Source: Diatrype stigma (Eukaryota > Ascomycota > Sordariomycetes > Xylariales > Diatrypaceae). Taken from it: DNA of 64,000 bases. The notes beneath the pieces are model-generated. The model saw only the letters and a program-made list of their open reading frames with translations. It made no database searches and was not told the origin of the DNA. The translations under genes and the position numbers were made by a program. The stretch is taken from assembly GCA_022225965.2 (NCBI GenBank), contig JAKJXP020000034.1:248001-312000 (forward strand), read 5' to 3'. Every line of letters starts with the position of its first letter. Position 1 is the first letter of the stretch. Of the stretch, positions 30,335 through 58,109 are shown piece by piece.

Positions 30335-30754
30335 CTAGATGGTTCCGCCGCGGGTCATCGGCTCAACATCACCCTCCACCTCGCTTTCATCCTTCCGATA
30401 GATCGTGCCACCGCGGGTCATAGGCTCAACGTCACCATCGGTATCGCGCTCCGCCCTGCGGTAGATAGTGCCACCACGGGTCATGGGCTCAACATCGCCA
30501 TTGGCGTCACTCTCATCCTTGCGATAGATGGTCCCACCGCGAGTCTGCTCCTCGGCATCATGTCTGGGTTTCATCGAAAAATCATCATCGTCGTAGTAGT
30601 CCATAGGACTTCTCTCTAGTTGGCGATAACATCAGGAACCAATTGCGACGGGTGTTTTCACAGAATAAGGAGTTGCTCAACAAGACTTACTGGTTGCTGG
30701 AGCAGCAAGGGCAGCGCCACTGAGGGCCAGAACAAGGGCGGAGAGTAAACGCAT
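30335..30754 (-). CDS. Putative repeat-containing RiPP precursor (Kex2-processed secreted peptide)
   Basis: Two exons (30754-30691 and 30615-30335) give 114 residues. Residues 1-17 are a signal peptide (MRLLSALVLALSGAALA). Lys22-Arg23, formed across the splice, is a Kex2-type site. An acidic stretch with YYDDDD follows. From residue 46 come three 21-residue repeats (46-66, 67-87, 88-108), each starting TRGGTIYR(K/R) and ending GDVEPM, then a truncated fourth unit TRGGTI before the stop. Each repeat has a dibasic pair right after Tyr. Signal peptide, Kex2 site and near-identical repeats with a Tyr-containing core define dikaritin-type precursors (ustiloxin, phomopsin, asperipin, epichloecyclin). 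The neighbours include four double-HxxHC proteins. The exact core and processing are unknown. It could instead be a simple Kex2-processed secreted repeat protein with no modification. Confidence 0.8.
30338..30544 (-). repeat. 63-base coding tandem repeat of the precursor
   Basis: Units at 30544-30482, 30481-30419 and 30418-30356, plus a partial unit to 30338. DNA differences between units are mostly at the variable acidic part (DESDAN, AERDTD, DESEVE), while TRGGTIYR and GDVEPM are kept. Confidence 0.9.
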
Positions 30755-31631
30755 TCTCGTTGATTAAGTGGTTGTTGCAAAGCAGGAGGTGAACTGATGA
30801 GGCAAAGGGAGGCTGTTACTCAGTTGTGCTTGTTTGGTAACTATCTGCCCATACCACGACACGACTTTATGTATGTGAGCGCAGTTAAATGGATCTTGTG
30901 ATTATGACTATAGGGAGTTGGATGCACTGAGCGAGTGGAAGGACTTTGAAAACGTACCTGAAGGTACAAGTAATATTTCTCACGTCAGAACCGAAGGGTG
31001 ACGTAAACTAGGGCACTTAGCCATCACCTCGATATAGATGCCGTAATTCACAGCACGTCAAATAATAGTTAGGATTGACTTACGCGATGGTAGGTCTGTG
31101 TACATAATTTTTAAAGGAGTAGTGTAGTTTGTTTTGGCAGAGAAAAGAACAAGAATCATGCAAATTGGCTGATGGAGAAGAAAATGTAGGAATAGGGGCA
31201 GAAAGACCGTACATCTATGGAACATCCTTGTTTACACAGGGGCATCTTAAAGAAGGAGGTAGATTGAATATGGGAATTTCCATCAATTCTAATGGGAGAG
31301 GATAGCACTACGTATTTACTGCTAGCTCATGGACGGTCATATTTAAGGGCATAGCTGTCCACGCTGTATCCGTGTAATTGTGTACATAGAAGGGACCCAA
31401 TCACTTTTGAACAGTTGTAGCGCTTATGGTAACATAAACAAAGGCACATAGAGTAAACTTGACCCAATATTTCGCCAACGTCAAGTAGCTATCCAGGATT
31501 GCAGCTGTATTGTCGCATTGCAAAAACGGAACCGTTATTGCTCTAGTGGCAATAACGCTTTATATACTGGCTGCGACATGTATCTACCCCCTTTTCCGAC
31601 ACTGTCCCGTCAATATGGACTATACTATGAT
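30755..31631. other. Promoter of the precursor gene; otherwise empty
   Basis: AT-rich upstream sequence of the precursor and 3' flank of the next gene. A weak TATA-like ACATAAAG lies about 110 bases before the precursor ATG. No gene is seen. Confidence 0.5.
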
Positions 31632-32312
31632 TTAACAGTATTCCTGATATGATACAACAGGCGTTTTAGTGTTGATCAACGAGTAGTTTGCGTGTCCCCT
31701 GACGACGGGAAGAAGCATTTTGACGCAGTGCTTCAAGTGGTCGTAGTTGCGCAGCTTTGGCGTTGCGGGGGTGCCATCTTTGAGGACCTGTCCAACGCTT
31801 AGGAAGAAGAAGAGACAGTGTGTAAGGTGTTCGCCGTGCTTGCTGAAGAGTTGCAACTCGTTATCCAATCCTTTCTCCCACTCAATATCTGTAACCTCCG
31901 TACCCCATGGATCCGAGAAGAATTTCCAGTCGTCCGCTAAGAGGAAGTCGTCGTTGGCATAGTGAGGGCAACCCGGCGGATACCATGCCCACATGAGCTG
32001 GTCCCAGGTACAGCCGGCAGACCGGGCTTCTGCGGTAGAGTTTCCGCAGAGATGATGTGATGATCCTTCTTCATGATGAGCAGTCCTTTGGGTGATGAAC
32101 ACAGTAATGGCCATTGTGACAGTCAGGCCACATATGCAGGCCACCACGGAAGCCAGCCCCCATCTGTTCCTGGGAAAGCCACGGACGAACCCTAAAAACC
32201 GAGATCGGTAAGACTCATTGTTACAGGATTCCTCTGCCCTTTCGTCGCTTGTGTTCTGTTCAAGCTTTTGGTAGTCGTGCGAGTTCAATTTGAGGGAAGG
32301 CCATTGAGACAT
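31632..32312 (-). CDS. UstYa-like double-HxxHC membrane protein (diverged subgroup, A)
   Basis: Single exon, 226 residues. A hydrophilic N-terminus is followed by one membrane helix (about 51-74) and a lumenal domain. The domain opens with CGNSTAEARSAGC, then D..MWAWYPPGC (about 89-115). It carries two HxxHC motifs, HLTHC (162-166) and HLKHC (192-196). Paired HxxHC motifs after a single N-terminal helix are the mark of DUF3328/UstYa-type oxidases, which cross-link or oxidise ribosomal peptides. The rest differs from classical DUF3328 but is shared with the genes at 38551-39342 and 44391-45167. It lies about 880 bases from the precursor gene on the same strand. Catalytic activity is inferred from the motif and context only. 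Confidence 0.8.
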   Translation of the reverse strand: MSQWPSLKLNSHDYQKLEQNTSDERAEESCNNESYRSRFLGFVRGFPRNRWGLASVVACICGLTVTMAITVFITQRTAHHEEGSSHHLCGNSTAEARSAGCTWDQLMWAWYPPGCPHYANDDFLLADDWKFFSDPWGTEVTDIEWEKGLDNELQLFSKHGEHLTHCLFFFLSVGQVLKDGTPATPKLRNYDHLKHCVKMLLPVVRGHANYSLINTKTPVVSYQEYC

Positions 32313-32789
32313 TTTGAGCTGTGAAGGTTTGACTGCTAGACCAATCCAACAAACAAGGGAAATGAGGTTCGGTTATCGGTCCTCTGCAAATGTTCCAAGA
32401 TTTATCAGGTATTTGATAGAGCTGCATGTTTGGAACCTTGGGTACCTGACGAGATGTGGGTAGTAATGCAGCGAATGCCTTACGTTGAACTATAGGTGGG
32501 CATGTCAGATAGTTCACTGCATGGGGTATGCCTTACCAAATCGACACTGAAGTAAGCCACTTTCCCACGTAATCTGCCGCACATACCATCGAACGCAACT
32601 ATGAAGTATAATTATTTTGTTATCATATCCAAATTCGGGATGTATACCGTATCACCCATTGTTCCCTCTATTCTTAATGTTGAACAAAAGCGATTTAATA
32701 CCCCCACTGCCATGTTTCGATGCCACACAGAAGCCCTGCACATCGCTATTACCTGACACCATTTGTCCCTGTGTATCCACCTATCGAAG
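32313..32789. other. Divergent promoter region
   Basis: Shared upstream region of the UstYa-like gene on the minus strand and the DUF3328 gene on the plus strand, about 480 bases. This is consistent with joint control. Confidence 0.5.
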
Positions 32790-33876
32790 ATGGAAAAACT
32801 GTCTAGAAACAGTTCAGAATTGCAGTATCGCGATCCGTTGAGCAGTGATGGTCTTCTCTTCGAAGATGACAATAGTGACATTGAGAGCAGTCGAAAACCG
32901 CATGCTTCTGTTCTAATTCCCTGGCTATTATGCATTGCACTTCTCATTGCACTATTATTCAGTTCAGCCCTCGACAGGTCTCAGGAGTGTGTCCATGAAG
33001 GCTTCTGGAACCCGTATGAATTCAGTGGGTTTAGTGTCATCTTAACTGGATTGAGGAAATAGGGGGTTCTAACCAATAGTAGAACCCGCGACGAGAGATC
33101 TCCCCGAAAAATATCACGATGTCCGATTCGATGCCACTCTTCGGTACAACGAGAGTCATCTACTTTACCGCCCCATTACCGATCCTCCCTATGTTGGCCA
33201 ACCCTCGCCAGAGATTGATGCTGCATGGGAAAAACTGATGGGATGTAAGTACTATGAAACCATGATTATGTGTGTCATCGACTAATGTTAAACAGCCGTG
33301 GATGTATTTGTAACGCCCGAAGAGCAGAAGGAGCTGGGCCAAGACCTGTGGCTCGATCCTGAGACCGGCCTATACGTCGGATTGTACGTCCACTGATTCT
33401 TGCATTTGCCACGGTATACTAATGGGCGCGAAGGCTATCAGTTATGCATGATCTTCATTGCGTGGTGAGCTTTCGGAATACCATAAGAATCACGATATTG
33501 GCGACTAACTGGTTTATTAGAACATGATCCGTATGTCTTTATATCCAGAATACTATCCAAAAATGAATCATTACACGACCAAGAATCACATTGGTGAGAA
33601 CATGGTAACGATCTTACCGTCGGTTTTCGAGCTAATAATGTCTATCTAGAGCACTGCCTGGATGCACTGAGACTGAGCCTCATGTGCACAGGGGATTTGA
33701 CACTGATTCCCACGAAAGACTCTGATAGCCGACCGTTTGAAGCTGTTTTCGACACTGTCCACGCATGCCGAGATTTCTCGGCTATTAGGGAATGGTCTAT
33801 TGACCGAGACTCCGCAACCCCCGATAAATATCATGGAAATGCAGAGAAGCTTAAACAGAAGACGGGAAACTCTTAA
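32790..33876 (+). CDS. DUF3328 (UstYa-family) oxidase
   Basis: Six exons (32790-33024, 33083-33244, 33296-33383, 33434-33464, 33521-33593, 33650-33876) encode 271 residues. One N-terminal membrane helix lies at about 44-65. The DUF3328 domain follows: YHDVRFDATLRYNESHLLYR, PPYVGQPSPEIDAAWEKLM, VTPEEQKELG, then HDLHC (167-171) and HIEHC (195-199), LRLSLMCTGDLT and a C-terminal HACRDFSAIREW. This is the full pattern of UstYa-type proteins, copper-dependent enzymes that oxidatively cyclise RiPP core peptides in the ustiloxin, phomopsin and related pathways. They also hydroxylate or chlorinate in other clusters. It diverges from the gene at 31632-32312. All five introns have GT-AG ends and keep frame. 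It is probably the main tailoring enzyme of the cluster. Confidence 0.93.
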
Positions 33877-34318
33877 TTCAATCATCTGAATAATGTCCAG
33901 AGCGTCTTTGAGATATAGTTGAAACTATGTTTACGACGCTAATGGAAGTTTTGAATATAATATGCGTGAAACCTTTAGTCGATTTACGCTCAGATTCATT
34001 GTCCTTTTATCTCGGCGGTGAAAATTGGTGGTGGAAATGCGTTGAAGGGAAAATTATTATAAATAATATATTGCATCCGTATTATATGATATAATATACT
34101 TTACTCACATATTAGATTAATGACTATTAACCCCCAAGGCGGTAAATATAAGGCGCATAGATAATACCCCGGGCGTCAAGCTTTCAGGGGTGGTGGTCAC
34201 GTGCCACCATGAAATAGGGGCTAACAACAAGGTGCTCTATTCATGATTTCAGGATTTGGTCACCGTTCTCTAGTCTAAAGGTTCATACTGTATGATCAAA
34301 CTAATCAAGTCTGGATAA
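33877..34318. other. Intergenic, very AT-rich
   Basis: Contains an AT-rich stretch near 34055-34110 and GAAATAGGGGCTA at 34211-34223, similar to the dispersed motif. No gene is seen. Confidence 0.5.
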
Positions 34319-35973
34319 CTAGCTAATGCCCCATAGAGTACCAAGTTCGGTCTCAAATGCTCGTGCGACGACAAAAGTGGTTCCCACTCGTCGAAACAAC
34401 TTGATAACCTGATCGCGCTCCCATTTTTCCATACACCTCGCACCGGCGACTCTGAGAGGAAATAAGTGCAGTATTTGTGATATATTGGTCCGTTCCAGTG
34501 CATAGTTTATCGAGCTCAAGATTGTGACGACGTGACACTGCACATCCTCCTGGGCCAGTGTTGGGACAGGAATACCCCAACTGTCCCACAGACTAATACT
34601 ATAGTCATATATCCCGGAAAGATATATACTGATTGCAGCGAAGAAGGAACTCCCAAGCAACCCGGTATGGTAGTCTACTACACAAGGTGTGGGCGAGACC
34701 GTCAAGCCCGTGGCTACGTCGAGTAGCTCCGAGTTCATGTCTCTCCAGATCGCAAGGGATTGTCGTAAGCGATGGCCTTCTAAGGCCAGATCACTTCCTT
34801 TTTGGTTAACTTCGTTCTCGCTCAGCTGTTCCAGACTATCTTCGAAGCTTCCGGCTCTACACGATGATTAGGCATCTTGAATTCTGTCTCGCGGTTGTGA
34901 ATCAGAACGTACTGCACGCAAAGCTTTGAGCACATGGAAATAATATCCAAGAGACTTTCCAGCGGGTTCCATTCCGGAAAGATGCCATCGGTCCATGAAT
35001 GATTCGACAGAGTAACCCAGTCAGGGGCTGTCAGAAAGCTGGTCTCGTTGAACACAACAGCTCGGCATACTTCGAATATTCTCGCCTGGAGGAAAAAGCC
35101 TCTGCCCCGTCCAGAGCTAAATGATAATGGGCCGGCAGCTTGCATAGCCTTCGATGTTCCGTGTACCATATGTTTCACCCAAGCCTCCCCCGTCGAGTCT
35201 TCCATGAGCTAGAGCCTAGTAAGAGAACATCACTCCACGATACAAGCGGAATATGAAGTCGTCGGATAGACAAAACGAAGAGGGGACCGACCTCGAATAA
35301 TCCTAACAACAGTGTAGTCCACAGAACCTGGATCCGTGATGGGATACCGGGAAGCTCCATGGCGTCTCGAAGGGAGACGATTGAAGATGAATACGACATA
35401 AGACTAGAGTAGACATCAGACCGATGACTTGACACTTCGGTTGGGCTCGAAGTATTGGACTTGGAAGCCTCTAGAGCGCCAATAGCTAGCACCGCCTGGA
35501 CTAGGTGGTTCTCTGTTTCGGACCCTAAACACATTCTGATCTCCGCGTCGTAGGATGGATATCCGGTGTTGAAGGTATTCTTTCGAATAAAGAGATCAAA
35601 ATAGTACAGGTAGCGATACGTCGATCCCGAAGAAGGGGATTGAAGCAGATGCGGAGCGCTGTCGCCCGACGCCCAAACAGGGGAAAGTGTGCTGTTGCCA
35701 TAATATGTGGACGTCCTATGTTTCCCGTGATCAATGGTGATCACCTGAATGGCTCCCGCTTTTGGGTATGTGCAAGGCAGACTTCGGCGGTGGCAGTTCT
35801 TACAAGGGGTTTTCCCCGTACACTATAACCAACTGTTAGTCTAGTTCAAGCTCAAGCTTGCTAGAGGAGCTAACACGAAGCACAGTAGAATATGTACCTA
35901 CCTTCAAGTGACTGCTGGCGCACTGCAAGCATCGTGACCTCCTCGCCCTAGAATCGAAAGGTCCGATAGCCAT
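34319..35973 (-). pseudogene. Zn2Cys6 regulator with Fungal_trans_2-like body, apparent frameshift
   Basis: Exons inferred: 35973-35902, 35822-35292 and 35208-34319. The first two carry the zinc cluster CLQCASSHLK, joined to CTGKTPCKNC and a last Cys in SLPC, followed by a DNA-proximal linker. The body (YLYYFDLFIRKNTF, HLVQAVLAIGALEASK, AWVKHMVHGTSKAMQAAGP, FFLQARIFEVCRAVVF) fits the Fungal_trans_2 type seen in many cluster-specific regulators. In the third exon the reading frame changes between 34825 and 34867: one frame ends at a TGA, the other has a TAA just upstream, and no intron of usual size fits. The exon length is not compatible with one frame. The gene may be inactive in this strain, make a truncated regulator, or the base call may be wrong. 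If intact it would be near 497 residues. Confidence 0.7.
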
Positions 35974-36637
35974 CCCGGAGTTATTGCTCGGACTGAGTGA
36001 GGAGAGAAAGAACAGTCATAGGTCTCATCATCTGTGATATTCTACGATATTTCTAGATGTTAGCTGAATGATGAGAAGAACCAATAGGACCGGTTACAGA
36101 AATTCGGCTGGGGTTTCTAGCTCGAAGCGTGGGCTTAGCGGCTGAACGCCAACTATACCTGAAGGGGTATCAATCGAGCGAGAAAGCTCCACTGGGGGCA
36201 TAGGGGGGCCGCTAGCAAACTATGACAGCATATAGTTGAGGCGGGGAATATCAGGGGTTGGCTAGATCTGGTCTTGACTGCGGCTGGCTGCGATATCCAT
36301 CGCGCGCCAGTGTGCTGCCAAGGCGGTAGTATAGTTAGTATCGTGTTCGCCATGATATTACTGCAATAGGCAAAGATGTCCCATTCCACCATGTCGGATT
36401 ATAGACCATCAATGACAGACTCGTTGATAGAACTGTTATGTTTTGCTAGGGCAGGGACAGTAATGTAGGCAGTAATGGCTATAAAGTCTTTGACCCTCGA
36501 CCTGGGAAACATTGTCAGTAAAGTAACCACTCGTGCACATCAACATCTGATTAGACCTTCCACTCGTCCATCGGTTATTTCCTCGTCCAGGACACTCGTC
36601 CAGCACACTCAAATACTCGGTTCCGTGTAATAGAGTC
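35974..36637. other. Divergent promoter region
   Basis: Between the Zn2Cys6 regulator and the PAF-acetylhydrolase-like gene. CACTCGTCCA and related strings recur near 36562-36604. No gene is seen. Confidence 0.5.
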
Positions 36638-37874
36638 ATGATGCGTTACCCAACTTACCTCCTCCTCCTGGCATCAGCTCATGCTTTTCTCCTACCGGAT
36701 CCTACTGGGCCCTTCTCAGTTGGTGTATCAGTTGCCACGCTCACTGATGAGACGCGCCTGGATCCATTTGCCCCTGAAGATACGCCTCAGAAGCGTAGAG
36801 TCGTGACCTCCACGTTTATACCCTTCAACACGACGAGAAACCCATGTGTTTTTCGCTCAACGCCTTATATGACCCCCGCGGTAGCTGGAGACTACGACAT
36901 TCTTGCTGCTTCGGCTGGACTATCCAACTCGACATTCGCATCCCTAACAATGCAACTGTGTGATATCCCGCACCGGAAGCCATGCTCCATCGCTCGAAAT
37001 TCACGCCCTCTTCTTATGTTCTCACCCGGATTTGGGCAGTCCCGCCTCCTATACAGCATGATGGCTCAATCCCTAGCGAGTGAAGGTTACATCGTCGTAA
37101 CTGTTGATCATCCGTACGATGCTACTGTGGTTGAATTCAATGATGGCAGCTTTGTCAGAGCAGCGAACATCTCAACGGACGACGAAAAAGCCATGGAACA
37201 AGTCGTACAGGTAAGAAAAGGCAACCCGTCTCACTGCAACAATCCAAACCACCACGAGTACGAACCACTAACTAACGGCTTGAAAGGTTCGCGCGTCCGA
37301 CATCTCCTTTGTCATAGACCAGCTCCAAAACGCGACAGTCCTCCGGGGCCCCATCGAAAACTCCGGAAGCCGAATCGATTTCGACCGCATCCTCATGTAC
37401 GGCCATTCGCTGGGGGGAGCGGCGTCCGCGGCCACTATGCTATCGGATGCGCGCATCCAGGGCGGTGTCGATCTGGACGGCCAGTACTTCAGCCCGGAGA
37501 AGGAGCACGGGGTATTCCGGCCATTCCTCAGTGTCGGCCGGTCGGATCATCGCGTGGAGGACCCGACGTGGGATGAGTTTTACGGAAACGCGCGGGGACC
37601 CATTGCGGAGATCGCTGTCGCCGGAAACGTGCACGGCTCCTTCACGGATTATCCGACTATCGTTACCGCCTTGAAGTTGAATCTTACAGGGGACGCCAAG
37701 GCAAACATGCAGGAGTTTATAGGATCGGGGGACTGGGCTAGAATGGGCAGCATCGTTACAAACTTGGTCAAGGCCTTTGGGGATTTCGTGTTTGAACATA
37801 CCGTCACAAGGATCCTGCGGGGTGTCGATGTTGACTTTCCTGAAGTCAGTCTTGTACGCAGCCAGCAGTTGTAG
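36638..37874 (+). CDS. Secreted PAF-acetylhydrolase-like alpha/beta hydrolase
   Basis: Two exons (36638-37210 and 37287-37874) encode 386 residues; a second ATG at 36641 is equally possible. A signal peptide covers about residues 1-17 (MMRYPTYLLLLASAHAF). The catalytic domain shows the oxyanion segment FSPGFGQSR, VVTVDHPYDA, and the nucleophile elbow GHSLGGAA, followed by GGVDLDGQ and a late His in VHGSFTDYP. This arrangement matches PAF-acetylhydrolase isoform II-like lipases/esterases. Several sequons support secretion. Placed inside the putative peptide cluster, it could hydrolyse or acylate the product in the secretory pathway or be an unrelated extracellular esterase; no substrate can be named. 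Confidence 0.85.
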
Positions 37875-38550
37875 CGCGACTTATGGTAGGTAAACCCGGC
37901 GACTGCACAATGTTGCGGTGATGTCCCCTGCCCCAACCCTTTAGTCGTGAGGTAACGGAGCCGGTTATATACATATCTGAAGCTCACCTAAGAGGATAAA
38001 GTTTTTGTTTATGGTAACTAGATATCAATCCCCATGAATATTCAGTATATTCGCCTTGTTCCGTGCTTCGGTTTGTTAGACCAATTTTCATCCTAAAGGC
38101 CAGTGCCCTCATTTTACGCAAGACCTTTTCGATGTAACGGCTATTCTTGAAAAGGGCCGACGACTCTATTCTCCCGCCAGCTCTTGGTGAGCGTTTGACA
38201 CCGGCTCTAATGAGATGAAGGATGGCAGTTATAGAGGTAACAATTCAGTTATCACGATAGAGGCTAGATAGGGGAGATCGCATTACATAATAAGGTGATC
38301 GACATTTAGCGGCATGACATGTATATGGGTACCTATATAGAGCTTGCTCCCTGGACTGGCGGTCGATTCTATCCCCTTTTTGACAATATATTTGGTCCCG
38401 ATCCATTTTAAGTCGCTTCATCAAGAGCGAAAAAAATAATATGAATATGTATGAATTTTCTGATCTTGTGGAGAGCCGCACTGCCTCCGTAGAAGTTGGA
38501 TGAATACAACAGCCCCTTGCCCGAGCTTCAAGCAGATAGTGGCATTGGCT
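37875..38550. other. Intergenic between convergent genes
   Basis: No gene is seen. The stretch is AT-rich with no clear repeats. Confidence 0.5.
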
Positions 38551-39342
38551 CTACTCGGGCATGTCTTGCAACCATACACTGTACGGCGCACAGCGGAGAT
38601 ACCCTGGATCTACCTCTGTCGGCTTCGGACGTTCATCATGCTCAGTCGCATTCCACTCCGGCCCTAAAAGTATGCCGTTGCAGTGATGGGTATGGGTGAA
38701 TGAAATCAACTCATCCAGGAGTGGTCGCTGCTCCTGCAAGGCGCGTGAGGTAAGCTCCCAGGTGTAACTGCAATGCCGCTTGTGATAATCAGAGGGCGTG
38801 AAGGTTACACGATGGTCACCTCCGCGAACTGCGGCGTTCGGCGTCAGAAACTATGGCGTGATTCCGGGTCTTGCCGGCCTTGGGAATAGTGTTTACTTAC
38901 CAGTTGCATCATCCATTTCGTGCTCGAGATCTATGTCATAATACCATTTTCTTGGGTACTTTGCTAAAAACAGCTCGGAGTGCTCCTCGTCATAGCAATC
39001 GGCGGGGATCCATCGCTGCAGCATAAGATCAAACTTGCACCCCGCCGCTTTAGCTTCAGCGGGGGACTTCCCACAATCCATGATCTGAGCCAACGTGTCT
39101 GATGCTGTAGCCGCTGGCGTCTTGGTAGTTAACGGTACCGAGGTGCCGAAGATGAAACCGATGACCCCGGATGCAGCAATACTAGCTAAAAGTGCTGCGA
39201 CATGCATATTGCATCGCCGGCGCTGACGGTGCGGACAGGACTCTTCATTCTCTCCTATGAAATTCTCGTCCAGCTTGTCGATCGTGTCCGTACTGGCAGA
39301 GCCTGACACATGCTTATAGATATGCCGCTGGGTTTTATCCAT
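38551..39342 (-). CDS. UstYa-like double-HxxHC membrane protein (diverged subgroup, B)
   Basis: Two exons (39342-38901 and 38828-38551) encode 239 residues. One membrane helix lies at about 47-70. The lumenal part begins CGKSPAEAKAAGC, with D..LQRWIPADC (about 90-116), the same opening as the proteins at 31632-32312 and 44391-45167. After the intron come HKRHC (163-167) and HTHHC (193-197). The second exon reads through cleanly to a TAG at 38551, and without it both motifs would be missing. The function is inferred to be oxidation or cross-linking of a cluster peptide, as for UstYa relatives. The first exon alone ends in a run-on stop 13 bases past the splice site, so automatic annotation may miss the catalytic half. 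Confidence 0.8.
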
Positions 39343-40029
39343 ATCTGGCAGTTTCTTGTAAATTGTTAAAGGGGGGATTCGCCAAGGATGCGCTTTCGTC
39401 CATATGTGGAGGTAGAACCGGGGTAAGCTACGCCTCAGCTATCTGTGTAACTCACATGGGGAATGTGTATTTTATTGTAAATTACTTCTCCCACCATGAG
39501 TAATGTTTCATAGAGGCTTCTCGGTACCTAGCTACTCGTCGGTTGCTCCAACATTGCGACCCCCCTTATCTCATCCTCCCACCTCATCCCCCCAGTACAT
39601 CACCATCTCACATAATCTACCCACCTCATCTTCTTTATGTGGTCGTTCTTATTATGGGGTGATATGCGGGGTGTTGGTTATGCTGTAGTATGTTGCACAG
39701 CCGACTTAGGTCTGCAACCTTTACCCGAGCTGCTACGAGACAAGCCACTGCAAGATACGTATAGGAGATAAGTATTAATAAGCGCATCAATAGGGTGTTA
39801 CTGCATACGTGTGGTGCCTGACACTTATATTACGAAAATCGATTCGTCACGTAAATGGACATTGCCCATCGCTCAACAATAACCAGAGACGTGTCTTGCT
39901 ATACGTTGAAGTTGACCTACGCAAATAACTGTCAGACAACCACGAGGAGAAGTCGCGTGATTCGATTCATTCACGACACACAGAAAGTATCTACTACTAG
40001 TTGTTCCGACCTATCACAAGACGTGAATC
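39343..40029. other. Divergent promoter region
   Basis: Between the UstYa-like gene on the minus strand and the M3 peptidase gene on the plus strand. It includes a pyrimidine-rich stretch near 39558-39600 (ACCCCCCTTAT and CCTCATCC). No gene is seen. Confidence 0.5.
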
Positions 40030-42217
40030 ATGGACTGCCCGCCGCAACCGCCCCTCACGTTTGCTGTAAATCCTGAATGGATCGCTCAGGCCAGCGAGGA
40101 GCTATTCCAGAAGCATCGCACGGTCGTAGATCAGCTCGTATCTACCGTTAAGCCGGAAACCGCGACATTCAATAATGTTATCGCAGTTCTCTTACAGCAC
40201 GAGAACGAGACACAACTTACTTACAATCTTATTAGTGCTTACTCCCTCGTCTCACCCGATGCGTCGCTGAGAGCTGCTGCAGCTGAGGCCGCGGACCAGA
40301 TTTCGCATTGCCTGATCGGCTGCAAAGAGGACACAACGTTGTTTTGCCTTGTCGATGCGGTATATCAAAAGCAGAAAGATGATCCCACCCTTGATGTCGA
40401 GAGCCACAAGGCCCTTGTTGAAGCGAGGCGGAGTTATGTGCGCAAAGGCATGTCACTACCCCTCGCAGATGCCAGCGGGGCTCGACGCGCTGTCACTGAT
40501 ATTGCGCGGAGGCTGAAAACCATCAACTCTGAATTCACGAGAAATCTGGATGAAAAGCAACATTATATTTGGCTTACTCGCGATGAGCTCGCCGGCATTC
40601 CTAATGATGCGCTTTCTGGTTTGGAGACCGGGGCTGGAGAGATGAGTAGCAAACTAGGGCTCAATTTGAATGGCCCGCACGCCCGATGGATGCTGGGTTT
40701 GGCGAGCTCGCCAGAGACGAGGGAAAGAATATATTTGGCGACCAGACGGGTAGTATGTGCTATTTATCTCTCTTTATTGTTCCTGTAGCTGTGTTAATGC
40801 GTCCATAGGCGAGTGAAAATGTGGCGCTGTTCGAGGAAGCTATCCGGCTGCGCTACCAATCAGCACAACTCTTAGGTTACCCGAGCCATACGGCATATAA
40901 GGTGGAGGTCATGATGGCGAAAACTCCTGCGGCTGTGATGGACCTTCTGGACAGTGTTCGTGATCGCGTCATCCGACAGTTGCCATATGATATTGATAAG
41001 CTTCTCACACTGAAAAGGGGTGATCCAGCTGCCCAGGGCCAGACCAATGGCGACACCATACTCTGGTCTGACATACCGTATTACAGTCGCATATTCGAAG
41101 AACAAAAATATTCCGTGGACCACAGTCTGATCTCGGAGTACTTCCCAGTTCAACAAACAGTCTCCAGAATGCTAACGTTGTTCGGCAAACTGTTCGGCTT
41201 CATATTTGTAGAGCTAACAAACACGGACCGTAGGCCGAGCGCCTTAGAGGAAGGTCTTATCTGGCACCCAGACGTCATGCTATATGGTGTCTGGAACGAC
41301 GAGCAGGAGGGAGGAGACTTTACTGGATTTCTGTACCTAGACCTGCATCCACGGCCCGGGAAGAGCGGTGGCGCCCAGTGTCGCCCTTTGCAGCTGGGTT
41401 TCGAGCGCTCAGACGGGCAGCGGCATCACCCATCGACGGTGTTGCTGACCAACTTTGACAAGCCAGCAGTAGGGAAACCGTCCCTCCTACAACACTCCGA
41501 CGTGGTTCTACTATTCCATGAACTCGGGCACGGCATGCATGACCTTTCGGGGCGATGCAAGTATTCGCGCTTCCATGGCGCAGAGACGGTCGGGGACTTC
41601 AACGAAGCCCCATCTCAGATGTTGGAGAACTGGTGCTGGGATGCCACGGCTCTGAAACATCTCTCGGGCCACTACCAGACAGGGGACGCCTTACCGGATC
41701 CGCTGATTGCGTCGCTTCTCCGCACTAGAGTCGTACTTCCTGCCGTGAAGCTCCTGCCACAGCTGAGAATTACGCTTTTTGATGCAGCGGTGCATTCTAC
41801 GTGCCCATCGGGGGAGCGCTTTCCAAACGTAGCGAGGATATATAGTGAATGTAATGAGCTCGGTGGGGTCGGGACTGTTGGCGATGAGTAAGACTACATC
41901 CCAATACGTGCTGTGTGCATCGCAGCAGAACCAAGACACAAAACTAATAGGTCTACAGATACGGCTACGCGGGCTACAGGCACCTCTTCTCCGGCAGTGA
42001 CGCTGGAATGTATGGATATCTCTGGTCAAAGGTTATTGCTATGGACATGTACGACACAGTGTTTAAACAGGATCCCTTGGATGACAAGGCCGGGAGGCGT
42101 TATAGGCACCTGGTTCTCGAGAAGGGGGGTAGTCAAGACGAGATGAAAACTTTTGTTCGATTCCTTGGTCGAAAGCCAACATATGGACCTTTCTATCGAT
42201 CACTTGGGCTAGAATAA
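40030..42217 (+). CDS. M3 family metallopeptidase (thimet oligopeptidase-like)
   Basis: Three exons (40030-40752, 40809-41887, 41959-42217) encode 686 residues. The zinc site is HELGH at about 478-482 within VVLLFHELGHGMHDL, and the third ligand Glu is in DFNEAPSQMLENW. The C-terminal GYRHLFSGSDAGMYGYLWSKVIAMDMY segment, on the last exon, is the family's substrate-binding end. M3 oligopeptidases (saccharolysin, thimet oligopeptidase) cut short peptides, usually below about 20 residues, in the cytosol or mitochondria. No signal peptide is seen. In the putative RiPP cluster it could trim released repeat peptides, give self-protection, or be a bystander. It has three exons and normal length, so it looks intact. 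Confidence 0.92.
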
Positions 42218-43457
42218 GAACCTACGTTAGTCTTAAGGCGCTTGTGGTCCTCCACTGCCTAGACATACACATGTTCATTCCACTGCTGATAGCCTTAAAT
42301 AGTTTCAAATCAAGGGCGATGATCTGTGAACTGTACCCGCATGCTTCTCTCTTCGTCTGTTTCGAGGTAATGTATATTCTGTCGCATCGCCGAAGTGACG
42401 CGGGAACCGAGAACTTAAGCAGTTAAGATCCTTTGTCAAACACTAGGTATACACCAGTGAGGATACCGTTAATTATAGGGGGTAGTGAGGTTATTTTCTT
42501 TCAGCCTGACGCAACTGCATACTGTAGGATTCCGCCCATTTCTTGGCCCCTTACATCGGCAGTGAATAGTTCAGGCCATGCAACATTTCTGGCCTATCGT
42601 GATATGGGGTTGGGGCTGACACATGGTTGCCTTACGCACCTGTTGGTTACCTATAGTCAATACACATGCATGTGACCAACTTGTTGGTTCATAGTCATTT
42701 GGCTAGGCTATACCCCTTTGTTGCGCTAAGGAATTAGGGCTGCAGCACTTCCAAACCTCCTCTATAGTGTCTACTGAAGCTTGATTGGTTAAGTAATCGT
42801 ATATCGGTCTATCTTATATATATAGTATAAGCTTACCCCGTTTTGACAAGTCTAGGACTACGGTACATACACTTAGAAAGAAGCAGCAGGATCCATATCC
42901 CTGACCGCATGAGTCGCCACCAGTACAGCTCCTCGAGCCCATGAACAGTTCAATCTACCTCCAACAAGTTATAACTGCATAACATGAGCACCAATAAGGA
43001 GGCCATCCCAAATGTCTCAAACAACTTTCCCGCTCGGAGAGATTCTTTGCGATGTAAGCCAATGGTACTAAGAGGTCTATTTCTTATGCTGCAACGAATC
43101 TAAGATCATCGCTGACGGCAGGAACTCGTCTATAAATCGATTCCAATACGCCAGCAAGTGGTGCATGTCTTCGAAGTCACACCGCTAAAGACTGCCTGGG
43201 TTTGTTTATTTATAACGTAAGTAAATAAGGGAGAGAAGGAGTGGTGAAATCGGTATATGTAAGTGTGTAGGATCCAGCTGTGAAGCTGAGTGTGAGAGCT
43301 AGCCTATATATACTGGAGTGGATAGGATGACTAAGGTACTAGCCACCCAACAATTTATGTAATAGAGGCATCCCCTGGGGAAGAGCCTGCTCCTCCAGAT
43401 GTATCTTGGTAATCATTGATACGCCTTGTCCACTAAGCGTCGGGTAACCGTAGAAAT
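42218..43457. other. Gene-poor stretch of 1.2 kb
   Basis: No supported gene is seen. AT-rich, with a TATATATATAGTATA run near 42815-42832. The last part is the promoter of the bANK gene. Confidence 0.5.
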
Positions 43458-44277
43458 ATGATGCGCAACCAGCCTCGGGGCACGACCAGCCATGCCACAA
43501 GCACTACATCACTTAAAGCTTATGATGATAGGAAAGAACGCAAGAGGCTTCAGAACCGCATTGCACAGCGGACATACCGTGAGACCTATTGGAATCCTGC
43601 GAAATGTTAGTCCTCGTTGCGGAAATTAATGGGGTTAGGTAGGACAAAACCAAAAGCAACGCATGATGGCCTTGGAAGCGGCTGTATCCGTACAGACGTC
43701 CGACACAGTGCTTGTGTCACCCCCCGCGACAAATATATCGAATAACGAATCTTCAACTACCGATATAACGCCTGTCCTTCACGACTCCAGTGCGTTCGAT
43801 GACCCGGGCTTGTGGCCTCTCAACTCCGAGCCAGAATGGACTGAAATGAGTCCCCCTCCTCCCCAGCCTACGCACCCCCCGGTAATAGGTCGGGCCGCCC
43901 TCCACCTTGCAGCATGTGACGGGAACGAGTCGATGACCAGGCTGCTTCTTGACAGCGGCGCTGATGTAGCCCGGCAGGACAGCAGTGGCTGCACACCGTT
44001 GCACATCGCTGCTGAAGCTGGACATGATAACATTGTCAAAATACTACTGGAGAACTCGGCTGATCCCAAAGCCATGGACTTCTTAGGTCGGACAGTCCTG
44101 TTTTCCGCCATTAAGGGGGGACATGAGAATACGGTGAGGGCCCTTCTAGAGGAACCAACGGTGGATGTCAACACAAAGGATGTTATGGGCCAGGTGCCCT
44201 TGCATATTGCTGTTGAGACGGGGTCAGAATCGATTGTTAGGCTTCTTCTGAAGAATGGAGCTAATATAGATGCTTGA
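43458..44277 (+). CDS. bANK transcription factor (bZIP basic region plus ankyrin repeats)
   Basis: Two exons (43458-43578 and 43643-44277) encode 251 residues. Residues about 24-48 form a bZIP basic region (RKERKRLQNRIAQRTYRQ), completed across the intron by QNQKQRM. There is no heptad leucine zipper. From about residue 123 to the end come four ankyrin repeats: AALHLAACDGNESMTRLLLDSG, TPLHIAAEAGHDNIVKILLEN, TVLFSAIKGGHENTVRALLEE and VPLHIAVETGSESIVRLLLKNG. A basic region without a zipper but with ankyrins defines bANK regulators such as ToxE of the HC-toxin cluster and Apf2 of the apicidin F cluster. These bind specific promoter elements of their own cluster. It is the best candidate pathway regulator here. 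The protein ends soon after the last repeat and is shorter than ToxE. Confidence 0.9.
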
Positions 44278-44390
44278 CACTCATATTATGGTCTTTTTAC
44301 ACTAATACTGTGGTTCCTAACATCGATGACCCCCCTTATTCTAATATCACTCTTCTCACTATCTGAGTTGAACAAGACAATGAGATACTA

Positions 44391-45167
44391 CTACGATTTT
44401 TGTACACCATCACCCTCGTGGTAATCTTTCGCGTGGTTGCAACCTCCCTCACGAACCCAACAGCCAGCATGCCCAACTTCGACTTTGATGGGAATTTTCC
44501 TAAAATCAGGTCCTTTGTCCGTCATGTCGACTAAGAAGTCAGCACAATGGTACGTATGCTGGGGGTCTAAGATGAGAGAGTCGTAGTATATCCTCTCCTC
44601 GAAGAAGGCTTTGAACTGTTTCTTCCACAGAGCGGCGCAGTGAACGATGTGATCCCTCATATTGGTGTAGTAGACCTCCACATTCCCCATCGCCTCGATG
44701 CTATCAATACGCTGCGTCCGGTTCTCATCCACATATCCGAACCATGACCTATCCGCTTGGTACACTTCGACGGAACCTTCATCCATACACGGTGCGGGCA
44801 CCCAGTGGTTACTAAGGATGTCGTATTTGCATCCAAGGCTCCTCGACTCGGCTATGGAACTGCCGCAACTCATGTAATTGGCGTGTGTCTTGAAGTTTGC
44901 TCCTGGTTCAATGGTCCCTGGATGGCTTTGAGAGATAGCAGTTCGTTCAAGAAGGCATGATTTTTGGAGTTGAAGAAGAATTATGCCCCAGAAGAGCGAA
45001 GTGAATGTGAAAATTAACAATCCATAAGGTAATGGAGACCATAGACTAGTTGTTCGTCCAGCCCAGAGCGGGCGCAGGTGACGGAACTTGTCGGGACGAG
45101 GTTTGCTTCGATCTTGCTCATGAGGTTGACCAAGGAATGGCTGGTTCTCTGCACTTGAATCCATCAT
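44391..45167 (-). CDS. UstYa-like double-HxxHC membrane protein (diverged subgroup, C)
   Basis: Single exon, 258 residues. A basic, proline-rich cytosolic N-terminus is followed by one membrane helix (about 47-67) and a lumenal domain opening CGSSIAESRSLGC, with D...HWVPAPC (about 101-127). The motifs are HIVHC (173-177) and HTYHC (204-208). A Cys-containing tail (GHAGCWVREGGC) follows. It is convergent with the bANK gene, only about 110 bases away. It is inferred to be a peptide-tailoring oxidase like the other three double-HxxHC proteins. A second in-frame Met directly follows the first. Confidence 0.8.
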   Translation of the reverse strand: MMDSSAENQPFLGQPHEQDRSKPRPDKFRHLRPLWAGRTTSLWSPLPYGLLIFTFTSLFWGIILLQLQKSCLLERTAISQSHPGTIEPGANFKTHANYMSCGSSIAESRSLGCKYDILSNHWVPAPCMDEGSVEVYQADRSWFGYVDENRTQRIDSIEAMGNVEVYYTNMRDHIVHCAALWKKQFKAFFEERIYYDSLILDPQHTYHCADFLVDMTDKGPDFRKIPIKVEVGHAGCWVREGGCNHAKDYHEGDGVQKS

Positions 45168-45746
45168 CCCTTTTGTGGAGACCGATCAGAAATTTTTGGG
45201 TTCAATGACAATACAAGCACTTTCGAAACACCAAACAATAGAGAAATATACGCATCTAAAGCGCTGGCTCACGGTAGAATGCGATATCGTATCAACTCGC
45301 AAGTGAGCTAGCACTTACTCCTCACACATTTGGTATCACATGTGTTGACTTACGTGATTCGAATTACAGTACTTACTGATATACTAAGACCCTTAAGTAG
45401 ACATCAGATCACTTACGTCAGCCAGTATTGTTGGACGTGAGATATCAAATCTGACAGAGTTTGCTAATCTCCCTTTCGCTACTTATGCCTATGACGTTAT
45501 CAAGTAAGTAGTAAGATGCCCTCCCGTATTAGTCAAGTCTCATACCACTTCTTTCCAAATTTCGTCTATTGGTTTCGCGCAATAAGTGACGTGATATCCG
45601 AAGGGCAGCCACAGGGAAGAATAAGGTACCACATCCGCGCTTGGCCCGTGCTGGGATTGGTGGAATAGGGGTAAAATATCCCACAGAGGGGTTCAATAGA
45701 ATATAGAACATGGGTATCGATATGCATGCTCGCGAAATCAAAGCCT
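45168..45746. other. Intergenic
   Basis: Promoter of the UstYa-like gene C and 3' side of the dehydrogenase gene. It carries GATTGGTGGAATAGGGGTA near 45655, similar to a string at 47262. No gene is seen. Confidence 0.5.
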
Positions 45747-46814
45747 TCAAACATAAGCTATCACTTGATCCTCATTCCACTCCCAGAACTTCTCCGTGCC
45801 ACCGGTTCCACCCTCAGCCACAGATTTCGTTGCTTTGACCAGATCCTCCCGGATGGGATAGAACAGGCCAAAGGGGACGACTATACATCGTAGTTAGCTG
45901 GTAGTTATCAACGAGACCCGCCTCGGATCGGCAAAGTATGTATGATTCGACTTACCCCAACTGCCGGTTGTATCCAATGTCGCCTCTGGAGACAGTCCAG
46001 CGAACAACTGCGTACAGGCTCCCTTCCACGGCGGATACCCGACCACTTTCGCTGCCAACCTGATGCTCAAGGGCTGATCACGAGCAAGCTCCGAGGCAAG
46101 ATTTCCCGGGTTCAGCGGGAAGCTAGCGATGCTGTCGGCGCGGTGCCGCTTCGCGTACTCGACGCCGAGCGCCCACGCAGCGGTCTTGCTAAGGCCGTAT
46201 CGGACGATGGCAGGCTTTTTGGTGATCTCGCCCAGAGCGCCCACGTCGATCCCGACGTCCTTCTCGCCGTACACCTCGGTCCCGAAGGAGGACGGCCAGG
46301 TAACGCGGACCGAGCCGGCCGGCTCGGACTTGGCCGTTTGCACCAGGAGCGGGGTCAGCAGCTTGGTGAAGAGGAACGTGCCGATGCAGTTGACCCCCAT
46401 GTTCAGCTCGTAGTTCTGGGCAGTCGTCGGGGCTGGCCCCTCGCTGCCTGTCATGACGCCGGCGTTGTTGAAGAGTACGTGGAGCTTCGTTTCCAGCGAG
46501 AGGAAGTGCTGGGCAGATTCCTTGACTAGGGTGAGGTCGGCAAGGTCGAGGTGTAAGTACTGTAGCTCTCCTTTGGACAAAGGCACCACTTGCTTAATGC
46601 TCGTGATCGCATCCGTCGCCTTTTTCTCGGAGCGAGCCGCGACGTACACTTTGGCATTCTTGGCGTAGAGTATCAGGGCGATCTCTTTTCCAACACCGGT
46701 GTTGGCGTCAGTTACGATGTAGACCTTTCCCTGAAGATTGGGGATGTTTTCCTCCGTGTATTCGGGGGAGGGAGGATGGAAGTTAGTCCATACTGTCGAG
46801 ATAGGGGGGCCCAT
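45747..46814 (-). CDS. Short-chain dehydrogenase/reductase
   Basis: Two exons (46814-45956 and 45880-45747) encode 330 residues; the ATG at 46814 has a good context (tcaccATGg). A Rossmann fold is seen with GKVYIVTDANTGVGKE, where the usual TGxxxGxG has Asp for the first Gly, then VYVAARSEKKA, the NNAGVM loop and the catalytic Ser and Tyr-x3-Lys in WPSSFGTE and YGLSK. It resembles the retinol dehydrogenase/light-induced reductase branch of fungal SDRs. It oxidises or reduces an alcohol or ketone with NAD(P). The second exon adds the conserved C-terminal FWEWNE segment. It is a possible tailoring enzyme of the neighbouring cluster; the link is by position only. Confidence 0.9.
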
Positions 46815-47465
46815 GGTGAATGATGGATGATGGTAGACGATGGAGGGACTGAAGTGTATGGACAATGAGGGATTTTCGTTTCAAGGCATCAGGGGCACAT
46901 GATAGTCGCAGCAGATGTCAAATACGCAATTGTGATCGGGGGCACAGCAGGTGAGACCTTCCCGGCCGTTCGCTCGCTCGGATAGTGCGCGGCCGAAGCC
47001 CGCGTAAAAAGCCTGTTGACCGAAGCTCCCTAGTCCAATCCCGGCGATCCGAGCTGCTCTAAGCCCGCGGAGGCCCGCCGGCAAAGACTGGCCCAAGCTC
47101 GACCGCCGCGGCTATTCGGACGGTCGCTAGTGTTCTACCTTCAACACCCACAACATCACCACTTTGATTATCACCAGCTTGACTTAGGACCATATATTAT
47201 AGGACAACAGGACATAAGCATCACTTTTCCAGCGAAAAAATAAAGAATCCGGATTGCCCTAGATTGGTGCGATATAGGGGTATAATAGTTAGTGCTCGTC
47301 CGTCGCTTAGACCGAACGTTGAAGATCGGATTTTTCCACCTGTATGATAACCTATCTGTTTCCAAATCACAGTATATTTGATCTCCTGAATTACACACCA
47401 ATCGGATTATATTATGCACTTGATGAACATCAATTTAGCCTGCCGGCTAAGCCTGAATCCTTTAT
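46815..47465. other. Intergenic
   Basis: 5' side of the dehydrogenase gene and 3' side of the permease gene. It carries GATTGGTGCGATATAGGGGTATAATA at 47262-47287. No gene is seen. Confidence 0.5.
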
Positions 47466-57107: not shown

Positions 57108-57569
57108 TGTGTTTGCGACTGGTCTGACAGGAGGCTTCGGCGCGATCTACGAAATATAGCGTGGGGGGTACGACGGGTTCGCGACCTTATTCGCGATGGA
57201 ATTGGATAATGGGAGCTTGTAACAGACAACTGCTTCGTAAACCAATGTTAGCACTAACAGCCAGGCCGATCTCCTGAATGTTCACCTTGGTCTAACGAAT
57301 AAGGCGATCGAGGAACAAGCGTGACGGGGAGGGCCAGATATCGAAATGGGATGAATCCAGCTTAAGAATTAAACGGCCAATCTATTCAGAACTGGGTACA
57401 GGAAGATGCCTGGACAAGAAATAATGCTTGGGTATATTGCCCTGAGACAAAAGGAATGGCATATGGTATGAGGGAGAGTGTTGGTGACAGCCATGCCGTT
57501 AAGACGCGACAACAAGAAGCTGAAAAGACGTACGCCAAGAAGGGACAGCGCAAAGGTATAGATACCAAG
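57108..57569. other. 5' flank of the PhoD-like gene
   Basis: Promoter and leader region. No other feature is recognised before the transposon-like element. Confidence 0.5.
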
Positions 57570-57600
57570 TACTTACCGTAGCGGGAAAATGTGCGGGGCA

Positions 57601-57666
57601 ACAATGATTGTAGGAGCTTACAATGATTGTTATGGGCACAATCATTGTATGGCTAACAATCATTGT
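57601..57666. repeat. Left array of ACAATSATTGT near-palindromes
   Basis: Four 11-base copies start at 57601, 57620, 57638 and 57656. The first two have G at the centre and the last two have C. Confidence 0.95.
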
Positions 57667-57863
57667 GCAATTTAGTGGGGTGTTACCGGTATGGGCTACC
57701 TGGATATAAAAGGTCCAATTGGAAAGGAAAGGGGCATAGTGATAATTGTGACCTGTAACTGCGTAGCCTGTAGCCTAATTGTAAAACCGTAATTGTAACC
57801 TGTATGTATGTAAAAAATGTGACTAACTTCCCTAGCCTGTATGTATTAACTCCAGAAGTAAGT

Positions 57864-57901
57864 GGTTCAATTCCCGGTATGAGTTTCATTTTTTCTTTTT
57901 T
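57864..57901 (+). other. tRNA B-box-like string and T-run inside the MITE
   Basis: GGTTCAATTCC (57864-57874) matches the polymerase III B box and is followed by T-runs at 57889-57894 and 57896-57901. No cloverleaf or A box is found upstream, so this is at most a tRNA-derived remnant. Confidence 0.3.
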
Positions 57902-57999
57902 GCGCAGCGCCAGCAATTTTGCCCCACCCATTAAATTTGACCAATCAGAGCAGCTACTGGCGCCCATCTGACCAATCATAACGCTTGCATCAAACCTAC

Positions 58000-58084
58000 A
58001 CAATGATTGTTAGCTACACAATGATTGTAAAATGATACAATGATTGTAATCCTGCACAATGATTGTAGAGCCAACAATCATTGT
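58000..58084. repeat. Right array of ACAATSATTGT near-palindromes
   Basis: Five 11-base copies start at 58000, 58018, 58037, 58056 and 58074. The first four have G at the centre and the last has C, mirroring the left array. Confidence 0.95.
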
Positions 58085-58109
58085 GTGGGCCCACCCATTG
58101 CCGCTACGG

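Follow-up and report, generated by a model that had tools for sequence, protein, structure and literature searches.

A probable dikaritin-type peptide cluster with divergent HxxHC proteins and an M3 oligopeptidase in Diatrype stigma

We analyzed a 64,000-nucleotide stretch of DNA (hereafter the window) from a 431,385-base contig of the wood-inhabiting fungus Diatrype stigma (Xylariales, Diatrypaceae), in which nine genes within positions 30335–45167 probably constitute a dikaritin or ust-type cluster for a ribosomally synthesized and post-translationally modified peptide (RiPP). Their order, with strands in brackets, is peptide precursor (−), Y1 (−), Y2 (+), Zn2Cys6 regulator (−), esterase (+), Y3 (−), M3 oligopeptidase (+), bANK regulator (+) and Y4 (−), where Y1 to Y4 denote the HxxHC proteins. 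The gene models were built manually with GT..AG introns and without transcript support, and signal segments were read by eye as hydrophobic N-termini, without SignalP. Every one of the nine reads through as an open frame, the spliced ones having GT..AG introns, and two of the intergenic gaps hold short open reading frames of 35 to 85 amino acids (aa). Pfam scanning gave no family above cut-off for the precursor, Y1, Y3 and Y4, and found neither a tyrosinase nor a methyltransferase among the nine proteins, in agreement, as to the tyrosinase, with the first-pass annotation made from the sequence alone. These two enzymes are part of an older five-part definition of dikaritins, later relaxed (PMC12048977, in the part available), and the locus falls outside the older version.

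The precursor gene (exons 30691–30754 and 30335–30615, minus strand, one GT..AG intron) encodes 114 aa, starting with a hydrophobic, signal-like segment that is followed by ATKR, three copies of TRGGTIY and a fourth copy ending as TRGGTI at the stop codon. The repeats form three full 21-residue units and a short fourth, with dibasic sites KR, RK, RR and RK. They are encoded by a 63-nt tandem array (30336–30545, placed by Tandem Repeats Finder and codon comparison), which that program found independently with a score of 238, the top of 24 rows. By eye, the predicted protein appears to fit the published definition of a repeat precursor, namely three or more repeats, each 8 aa or longer, lying between KR, KK, RK or RR, as worded in the available part of PMC7329392. 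A precursor with near-identical repeats and a Kex2-type site had been proposed in the first-pass annotation; the repeats and dibasic sites are there, but the KR lies behind the signal segment, and the sites behind the repeats are RK, RR and RK. The gene is single-copy in the D. stigma genome, the only further match having an E value of 0.5.

Searching 5.8 billion proteins at E ≤ 1 returned two homologues of the precursor, from Corynascus sepedonium (P0001) and Coniochaeta sp. 2T2.1 (P0002), both of which belong to orders other than that of D. stigma. All three precursors have KR behind a signal-like segment, an acidic block MDY(Y/H)DDDDFS, and repeated TRGGTIY, in most cases with RKDE behind it. 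The spacers differ, at 11 residues per repeat in the two homologues and 21 in the window. Full TRGGTIY copies number three in the window, four in P0001 and two in P0002. The C. sepedonium protein stops exactly at TRGGTIY, the last copy of P0002 is degenerate, and that of the window is one residue short. Because TR is invariant across the aligned copies while the spacers vary, the seven-residue TRGGTIY is the predicted core, and GGTIY, around which a product had been expected, was rejected as the core. Among the three full window copies, the core codons show 11 differences in 21 codon pairs, all 11 synonymous, and the rest of the repeat shows 13 synonymous and 14 non-synonymous differences in 42 codon pairs (Fisher P 0.003, with non-independent pairs). 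The truncated last copy, with a second stop codon directly behind its TRGGTI-stop, could indicate a decayed or silent remnant with non-functional genes; we consider this highly improbable, as the core copies differ synonymously only, the nine models are open-framed with GT..AG introns where spliced, and the HxxHC motifs and the M3 active-site sequence described below are intact. The acidic block occupies residues 26–35 of the window precursor (MDYYDDDDFS), directly behind KR. It is single-copy, is kept at 9 of 10 positions across the three genera, nearly as conserved as the core, and might serve as a recognition element for an enzyme or be released as a second peptide.

Four membrane-anchored proteins with two HxxHC motifs each had been noted at the locus, and our models confirmed them. 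They are Y1 (31632–32312, minus strand, single exon, 226 aa; HLTHC and HLKHC, 25 residues apart), Y2 (32790–33876, plus strand, six exons, 272 aa; HDLHC and HIEHC, 23 residues apart), Y3 (38901–39342 and 38551–38828, minus strand, two exons, 239 aa; HKRHC and HTHHC, 25 residues apart) and Y4 (44391–45167, minus strand, single exon, 258 aa; HIVHC and HTYHC, 26 residues apart). A single strong hydrophobic segment, a transmembrane segment in Y1 and Y4, is present in all four, the two motifs are spaced by 23 to 26 residues, and all eight motifs are intact. Translating the entire window in six frames gives 16 occurrences of HxxHC, two of them with an internal stop; three open frames hold two motifs (Y1, Y3 and Y4), and Y2 acquires its second by splicing. 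By Pfam, one of the four is a UstYa (DUF3328) protein, namely Y2, the second gene from the precursor, which matched PF11807 with E 6.3e-42 and alone passed the 25-bit cut-off; Y1 reached 12.9 bits, and Y3 and Y4 gave no match. A public D. stigma model of Y3, SLS62_005201 (P0007), equals the start of our Y3 and ends ahead of both HxxHC motifs. In the predicted structures of Y4 and Y1 (mean predicted local distance difference test scores 81 and 68), one long N-terminal helix precedes two successive helices bearing one HxxHC each. Y2 had no solved-structure relative by sequence at E ≤ 1, and a fold search with the Y4 model gave no credible solved match, a result uninformative on fold novelty.

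A profile of Y4, Y3 and Y1 retrieved 137 proteins at E ≤ 0.001, whose named hosts span Sordariomycetes to Dothideomycetes and include lichen, Aspergillus and Leotiomycete members. Among the matches listed (120 of 137), none carries a precomputed Pfam domain; two HxxHC motifs are present in 115, four in 2, a single one in 1 and none in 2, and the first motif spacing is 26 in 76, 25 in 40 and 27 in 1. No Y1 relative in a prokaryote genome and no Y4 relative in a viral contig was confirmed. By hhalign, the Y4 and Y1 families are homologous, with a probability of 98.4% and E 6.5e-15; for a Y3 group of three sequences, the match to the Y4 family has a probability of 99.8%. Against PF11807, E ≤ 0.01 was reached by 6 of the 59 rows in the Y4 alignment (best 6.5e-4) and by 3 of the 36 in the Y1 alignment (best 1.1e-3). 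These comparisons suggest that Y1, Y3 and Y4 belong to a family distantly related to UstYa.

A tree of 53 of the 120 listed relatives and the three window proteins separated a clade of Y1 from one of Y4; the branch of Y3 is long and its position uncertain. Y1-type and Y4-type proteins occur together on at least seven contigs, from Hypoxylon fuscum, Hypoxylon sp. EC38, Sphaceloma murrayae, Lepraria neglecta and three more, with three of the seven paired by matching contig size alone. In Sphaceloma murrayae the locus tags are CAC42_6557 and CAC42_6559, and in Lepraria neglecta OEA41_005546 and OEA41_005549. In both clades the Sphaceloma protein falls immediately outside the group of the window, and that of Lepraria pairs with a protein from one and the same contig; because the two placements match in this way, the Y1/Y4 pair looks co-inherited. 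Two Colletotrichum proteins (P0052 and P0074, 372 and 377 aa) carry four HxxHC motifs, with both modules in one chain, and are possibly either a true fusion, which would back a two-subunit enzyme, or a gene-model error. Elsewhere in the D. stigma genome, a Y4-type HxxHC frame (E 0.002, L013, C19:223418) and a strong UstYa frame (L001, C19:226941), separated by about 3.4 kb, may mark a second mixed HxxHC locus. PF11807 has 23 exon-level matches on 15 contigs of this genome.

The M3 oligopeptidase gene (40030–42217, plus strand, three exons) encodes 686 aa with the sequence HELGHGMH (Pfam E 1.2e-103), as the first-pass annotation had it, and without an N-terminal hydrophobic segment. A public D. 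stigma model (P0123) is 100% identical over 88% of it and is without the last exon; two further M3 loci exist in the genome. Synteny in related genomes was tested as same-contig linkage, judged by species and matching contig size, with gene order presumed, and the M3 protein search listed 120 of 199 matches. In that form it was not refuted, as genera other than Diatrype also carry precursor, M3 and HxxHC genes on common contigs. Both other species with a precursor match have precursor and M3 on one contig. In C. sepedonium this contig is only 16,626 bases (VTI28DRAFT_7460 and VTI28DRAFT_7463), and in Coniochaeta sp. 2T2.1 precursor, M3 and a Y1-type gene share a contig of 1,124,188 bases, which is so long that it is weaker evidence. 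Hypoxylon sp. EC38 has M3 (73%), Y4-type (66%) and Y1-type proteins on an 899,206-base contig, Hypoxylon fuscum has Y4-type (72%) and Y1-type proteins on one contig, and Corynascus novoguineensis has a Y4-type protein (69%) on a 6.9-kb contig. In a tree of 34 of the 120 listed M3 matches and the window M3, the window protein paired with that of EC38 (97/97) and the Coniochaeta sp. 2T2.1 protein with that of C. sepedonium (100/100). Both pairs are part of an 18-row group (100/100) to which the copies widespread in fungi, among them the second copy of EC38, do not belong. The best reading is that the cluster is conserved across relatives.

The regulators proposed earlier were also confirmed. The Zn2Cys6 protein (34319–35973, minus strand, four exons, 478 aa) has Zn_clus and Fungal_trans_2 above cut-off. 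The bANK protein (43461–44277, plus strand, two exons, 250 aa) has a basic region, a partial bZIP_1 match over residues 23–55 that is below cut-off (E 8.8e-5), and ankyrin repeats, with Ank matched in four stretches. The predicted protein thus has what defines a bANK regulator, a bZIP-type basic region without a zipper and ankyrin repeats. The esterase (36638–37874, plus strand, two exons, 386 aa) is platelet-activating factor (PAF) acetylhydrolase-like by Pfam (PAF-AH_p_II, E 9.2e-17); the claim that it is secreted rests on a signal-like N-terminus read by eye, and its membership of the cluster is uncertain.

For the bANK regulator Apf2, an Api-box, TGACGTGA, is described in all cluster promoters but its own (PMC4109984, in the part available). 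Allowing at most one mismatch, we found 13 Api-box-like sites in the 4,674 bases of six promoter regions, 2 exact and 11 with one mismatch. Four lie in the precursor promoter (30980–31612; starting at 30980, which is exact, 30999, 31053 and 31605), one between Y1 and Y2 (32447–32454, plus strand, TGACGAGA), three between Y3 and M3 (39847–40026; 39847, 39971 and 40019) and five upstream of Y4 (45350–45594; 45350, 45413, 45433, 45492 and 45587, which is exact); none occurs in the Zn2Cys6/esterase region or in the bANK region. Twenty 10-kb stretches of the same genome, representing general sequence and not promoters alone, held 134 sites, or 0.67 per kb, so that 3.1 would be expected against the 13 found (Poisson P 2.5e-5), and first-order Markov sequences reached 13 in 0 of 300 cases. 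The test is partly post hoc, as ACGT cores had been noticed beforehand, and the same applies to the division of promoters into those with and without sites. Background windows matched the density upstream of Y4 (5 sites in 726 bases) in 4 of 7420 cases, that of the precursor (4 in 877) in 54 of 7300, that between Y3 and M3 (3 in 687) in 164 of 7460, and that between Y1 and Y2 (1 in 477) in 1820 of 7620. The signal thus comes from the promoters of Y4 and the precursor, whose densities are the rarest in the background, and the lone Y1/Y2 site is no more than chance. Among 32,896 8-mers ranked by enrichment in the promoter regions, TGACGTGA came 8th, not first. The Tox-box ATCTCNCGNA was absent from the six regions, and of 32 Zn2Cys6-type CGGN11CCG sites the 2 inside 30335–45167 are both in coding sequence. 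The distribution of sites suggests that the esterase and Zn2Cys6 genes may lie outside the regulon.

The precursor might instead release unmodified linear Kex2 peptides with a signal, effector or surface role, next to a separate pathway made up of the HxxHC, M3 and regulator genes. Umemura's survey counted 6120 of 7878 such precursors without a nearby DUF3328 gene (PMC7329392, available part), which would suit this explanation, as would the missing hydrophobic segment of M3 and the lack of the common site in the Zn2Cys6/esterase promoter region. We nevertheless regard it as decidedly unlikely, because the contig linkage of precursor with M3 recurs in two other orders, with a Y1-type gene also on the Coniochaeta contig, the precursor promoter has the same type of site as the Y3/M3 and Y4 regions, and the core ends in Tyr, the cross-linked residue of known dikaritins (PMC7329392).

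The first-pass call of a dikaritin-like RiPP cluster is supported by the repeat precursor with its signal-like segment for the endoplasmic reticulum, the nearby UstYa protein Y2, the conserved Tyr-containing core and the sharing of contigs in relatives, the first three being what assigns the predicted locus to the class. Several observations weigh against this assignment. Counted by position, the codon contrast between the core and the rest of the repeat is not significant (P 0.09), and RK followed by Asp is an unfavoured Kex2 site, although RK is accepted as a dibasic site in Umemura's definition (PMC7329392). The Y4 and Y1 family profiles match UstYa weakly (probability 7 to 11%), though the motifs align, and the Y1 model is of low confidence over much of the motif-helix region, particularly its second half. 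No precursor match was found in Hypoxylon or Sphaceloma at E ≤ 1, and the contigs of Hypoxylon fuscum, Corynascus novoguineensis and Sphaceloma have no M3 among the matches listed. The four linked M3 proteins do not form a clade of their own; mixed among them are sequences from Pseudogymnoascus, Nemania, Xylariaceae sp. FL0594 and Coniochaeta PMI_546 and a second sequence of Coniochaeta sp. 2T2.1, whose contigs have no Y or precursor match among those listed. Finally, the lack of an N-terminal hydrophobic segment in M3 does not readily fit action on a lumenal peptide.

With these points weighed, we still consider a dikaritin or ust-type cluster the probable explanation, and a model of secretory release, HxxHC oxidation and M3 trimming is the reading that uses all the linked parts. 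In this model the precursor would enter the secretory pathway and lose its signal segment, and dibasic cleavage of the Kex2/Kex1 type at KR, RK and RR would release fragments ending in TRGGTIY. The membrane-anchored Y1 to Y4 proteins, with lumenal catalytic domains, would then oxidize the core at a binuclear copper site, Y2 as a true UstYa protein and Y1, Y3 and Y4 as presumed distant relatives, of which Y1 and Y4 probably work as a pair. Most likely, an ether would form between the phenol oxygen of Tyr and the beta-carbon of a residue upstream of it, such as Thr5, with no tyrosinase involved; this follows the proposal for AprY in asperipin-2a, whose listed genes include no tyrosinase. A dedicated M3 oligopeptidase would trim the variable N-terminal spacer, and the bANK protein would turn the gene set on through the TGACGTGA-like promoter sites.

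The proposed copper chemistry has a precedent in CctR, the DUF3328 hydroxylase of cyclochlorotine, which likewise has a single transmembrane helix and carries the HxxHC(x)nHxxHC motifs on a pair of helices; its binuclear copper site has been shown and it acts on cyclochlorotine as a homodimer (PMC12435403, in the part available), whereas copper binding by the D. stigma proteins is putative and Y1, Y3 and Y4 are below the Pfam UstYa cut-off. As DUF3328 enzymes are implicated in hydroxylation and halogenation too (PMC12435403), a UstY-type pathway could act without cyclizing TRGGTIY and yield, for example, a linear peptide that is hydroxylated, halogenated or dehydrogenated, or a second peptide from MDYYDDDDFS, whose conservation at 9 of 10 positions behind KR in all three precursors would fit the latter. 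This alternative seems to us rather unlikely, given that the acidic block is single-copy whereas TRGGTIY is repeated, and that the characterized Tyr-containing cases in the available parts of PMC7329392 and PMC6514808 are cyclized.

Among known systems, the asperipin-2a cluster of Aspergillus flavus (aprA, aprY, aprT and aprR) also combines a repeat precursor with DUF3328 and has no tyrosinase in its list; it differs in its core, FYYTGY, in having one DUF3328 protein against one UstYa and three divergent HxxHC proteins in D. stigma, and in a transporter and a reductase, with no M3 or bANK listed (PMC6514808, available part). Ustiloxin B and phomopsin share the signal-like leader, the repeated core between dibasic sites, DUF3328 and zinc-finger regulators, but use a tyrosinase, a methyltransferase and, as listed, S41 peptidases (PMC6514808), none of which is among the nine D. 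stigma proteins, where M3 stands instead. The earlier statement that known dikaritin clusters combine the same core parts is partly right, since the reviewed clusters list S41 peptidases and tyrosinases and not M3 (PMC6514808), and three of the four D. stigma HxxHC proteins score under the Pfam UstYa cut-off. ToxE, Aps2 and Apf2 resemble the bANK protein in pairing a basic region with ankyrin repeats in a peptide cluster, with Api-box-type sites absent from the regulator's own promoter; they regulate non-ribosomal peptide clusters (PMC4109984), whereas the D. stigma sites are putative and 11 of 13 have one mismatch.

Outside the nine genes, a short-chain dehydrogenase/reductase (SDR) gene at 45894–46865 became a candidate member because an M3 model from Pseudogymnoascus has an SDR fused to it, but the pair shares 24% across 131 columns and orthology was dropped. 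At 57569–58116 the window holds an element of about 548 bases resembling a miniature inverted-repeat transposable element. Read by eye, its long inverted arms consist of ACAATGATTGTA-like palindromes, and TACTTA adjoins both ends; the genome has three further relatives of nearly full length (C53, C17 and C2), which are 69 to 86% identical.

Within the literature searched, the proposal that the cluster is undescribed is supported. GGTIY occurs there in one paper, on an unrelated subject; the supplementary tables of the repeat-precursor surveys may list a relative. The published antiSMASH table for the D. stigma genome gives 0 fungal-RiPP clusters (PMC12217926, available part), although this genome has many further UstYa genes. 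An M3 peptidase in a dikaritin cluster is not named in the available parts of PMC6514808 and PMC12048977, and the protease that trims the ustiloxin core was still unknown according to the 2019 review (PMC6514808); M3 is a candidate for such a core-trimming protease. More speculatively, and with considerable doubt, Y1 and Y4 might be subunits of a second, uncatalogued HxxHC binuclear-copper peptide oxidase inherited as a pair across Ascomycota, a pair marking a class of RiPP clusters unseen by Pfam-based finders, with its partner M3 as the missing core-trimming protease. Several of the predicted enzymes, Y1, Y3 and Y4, are too divergent for usual domain searches, and where such putative HxxHC oxidases score under the UstYa cut-off, counts that rely on Pfam may underestimate the number of these clusters.

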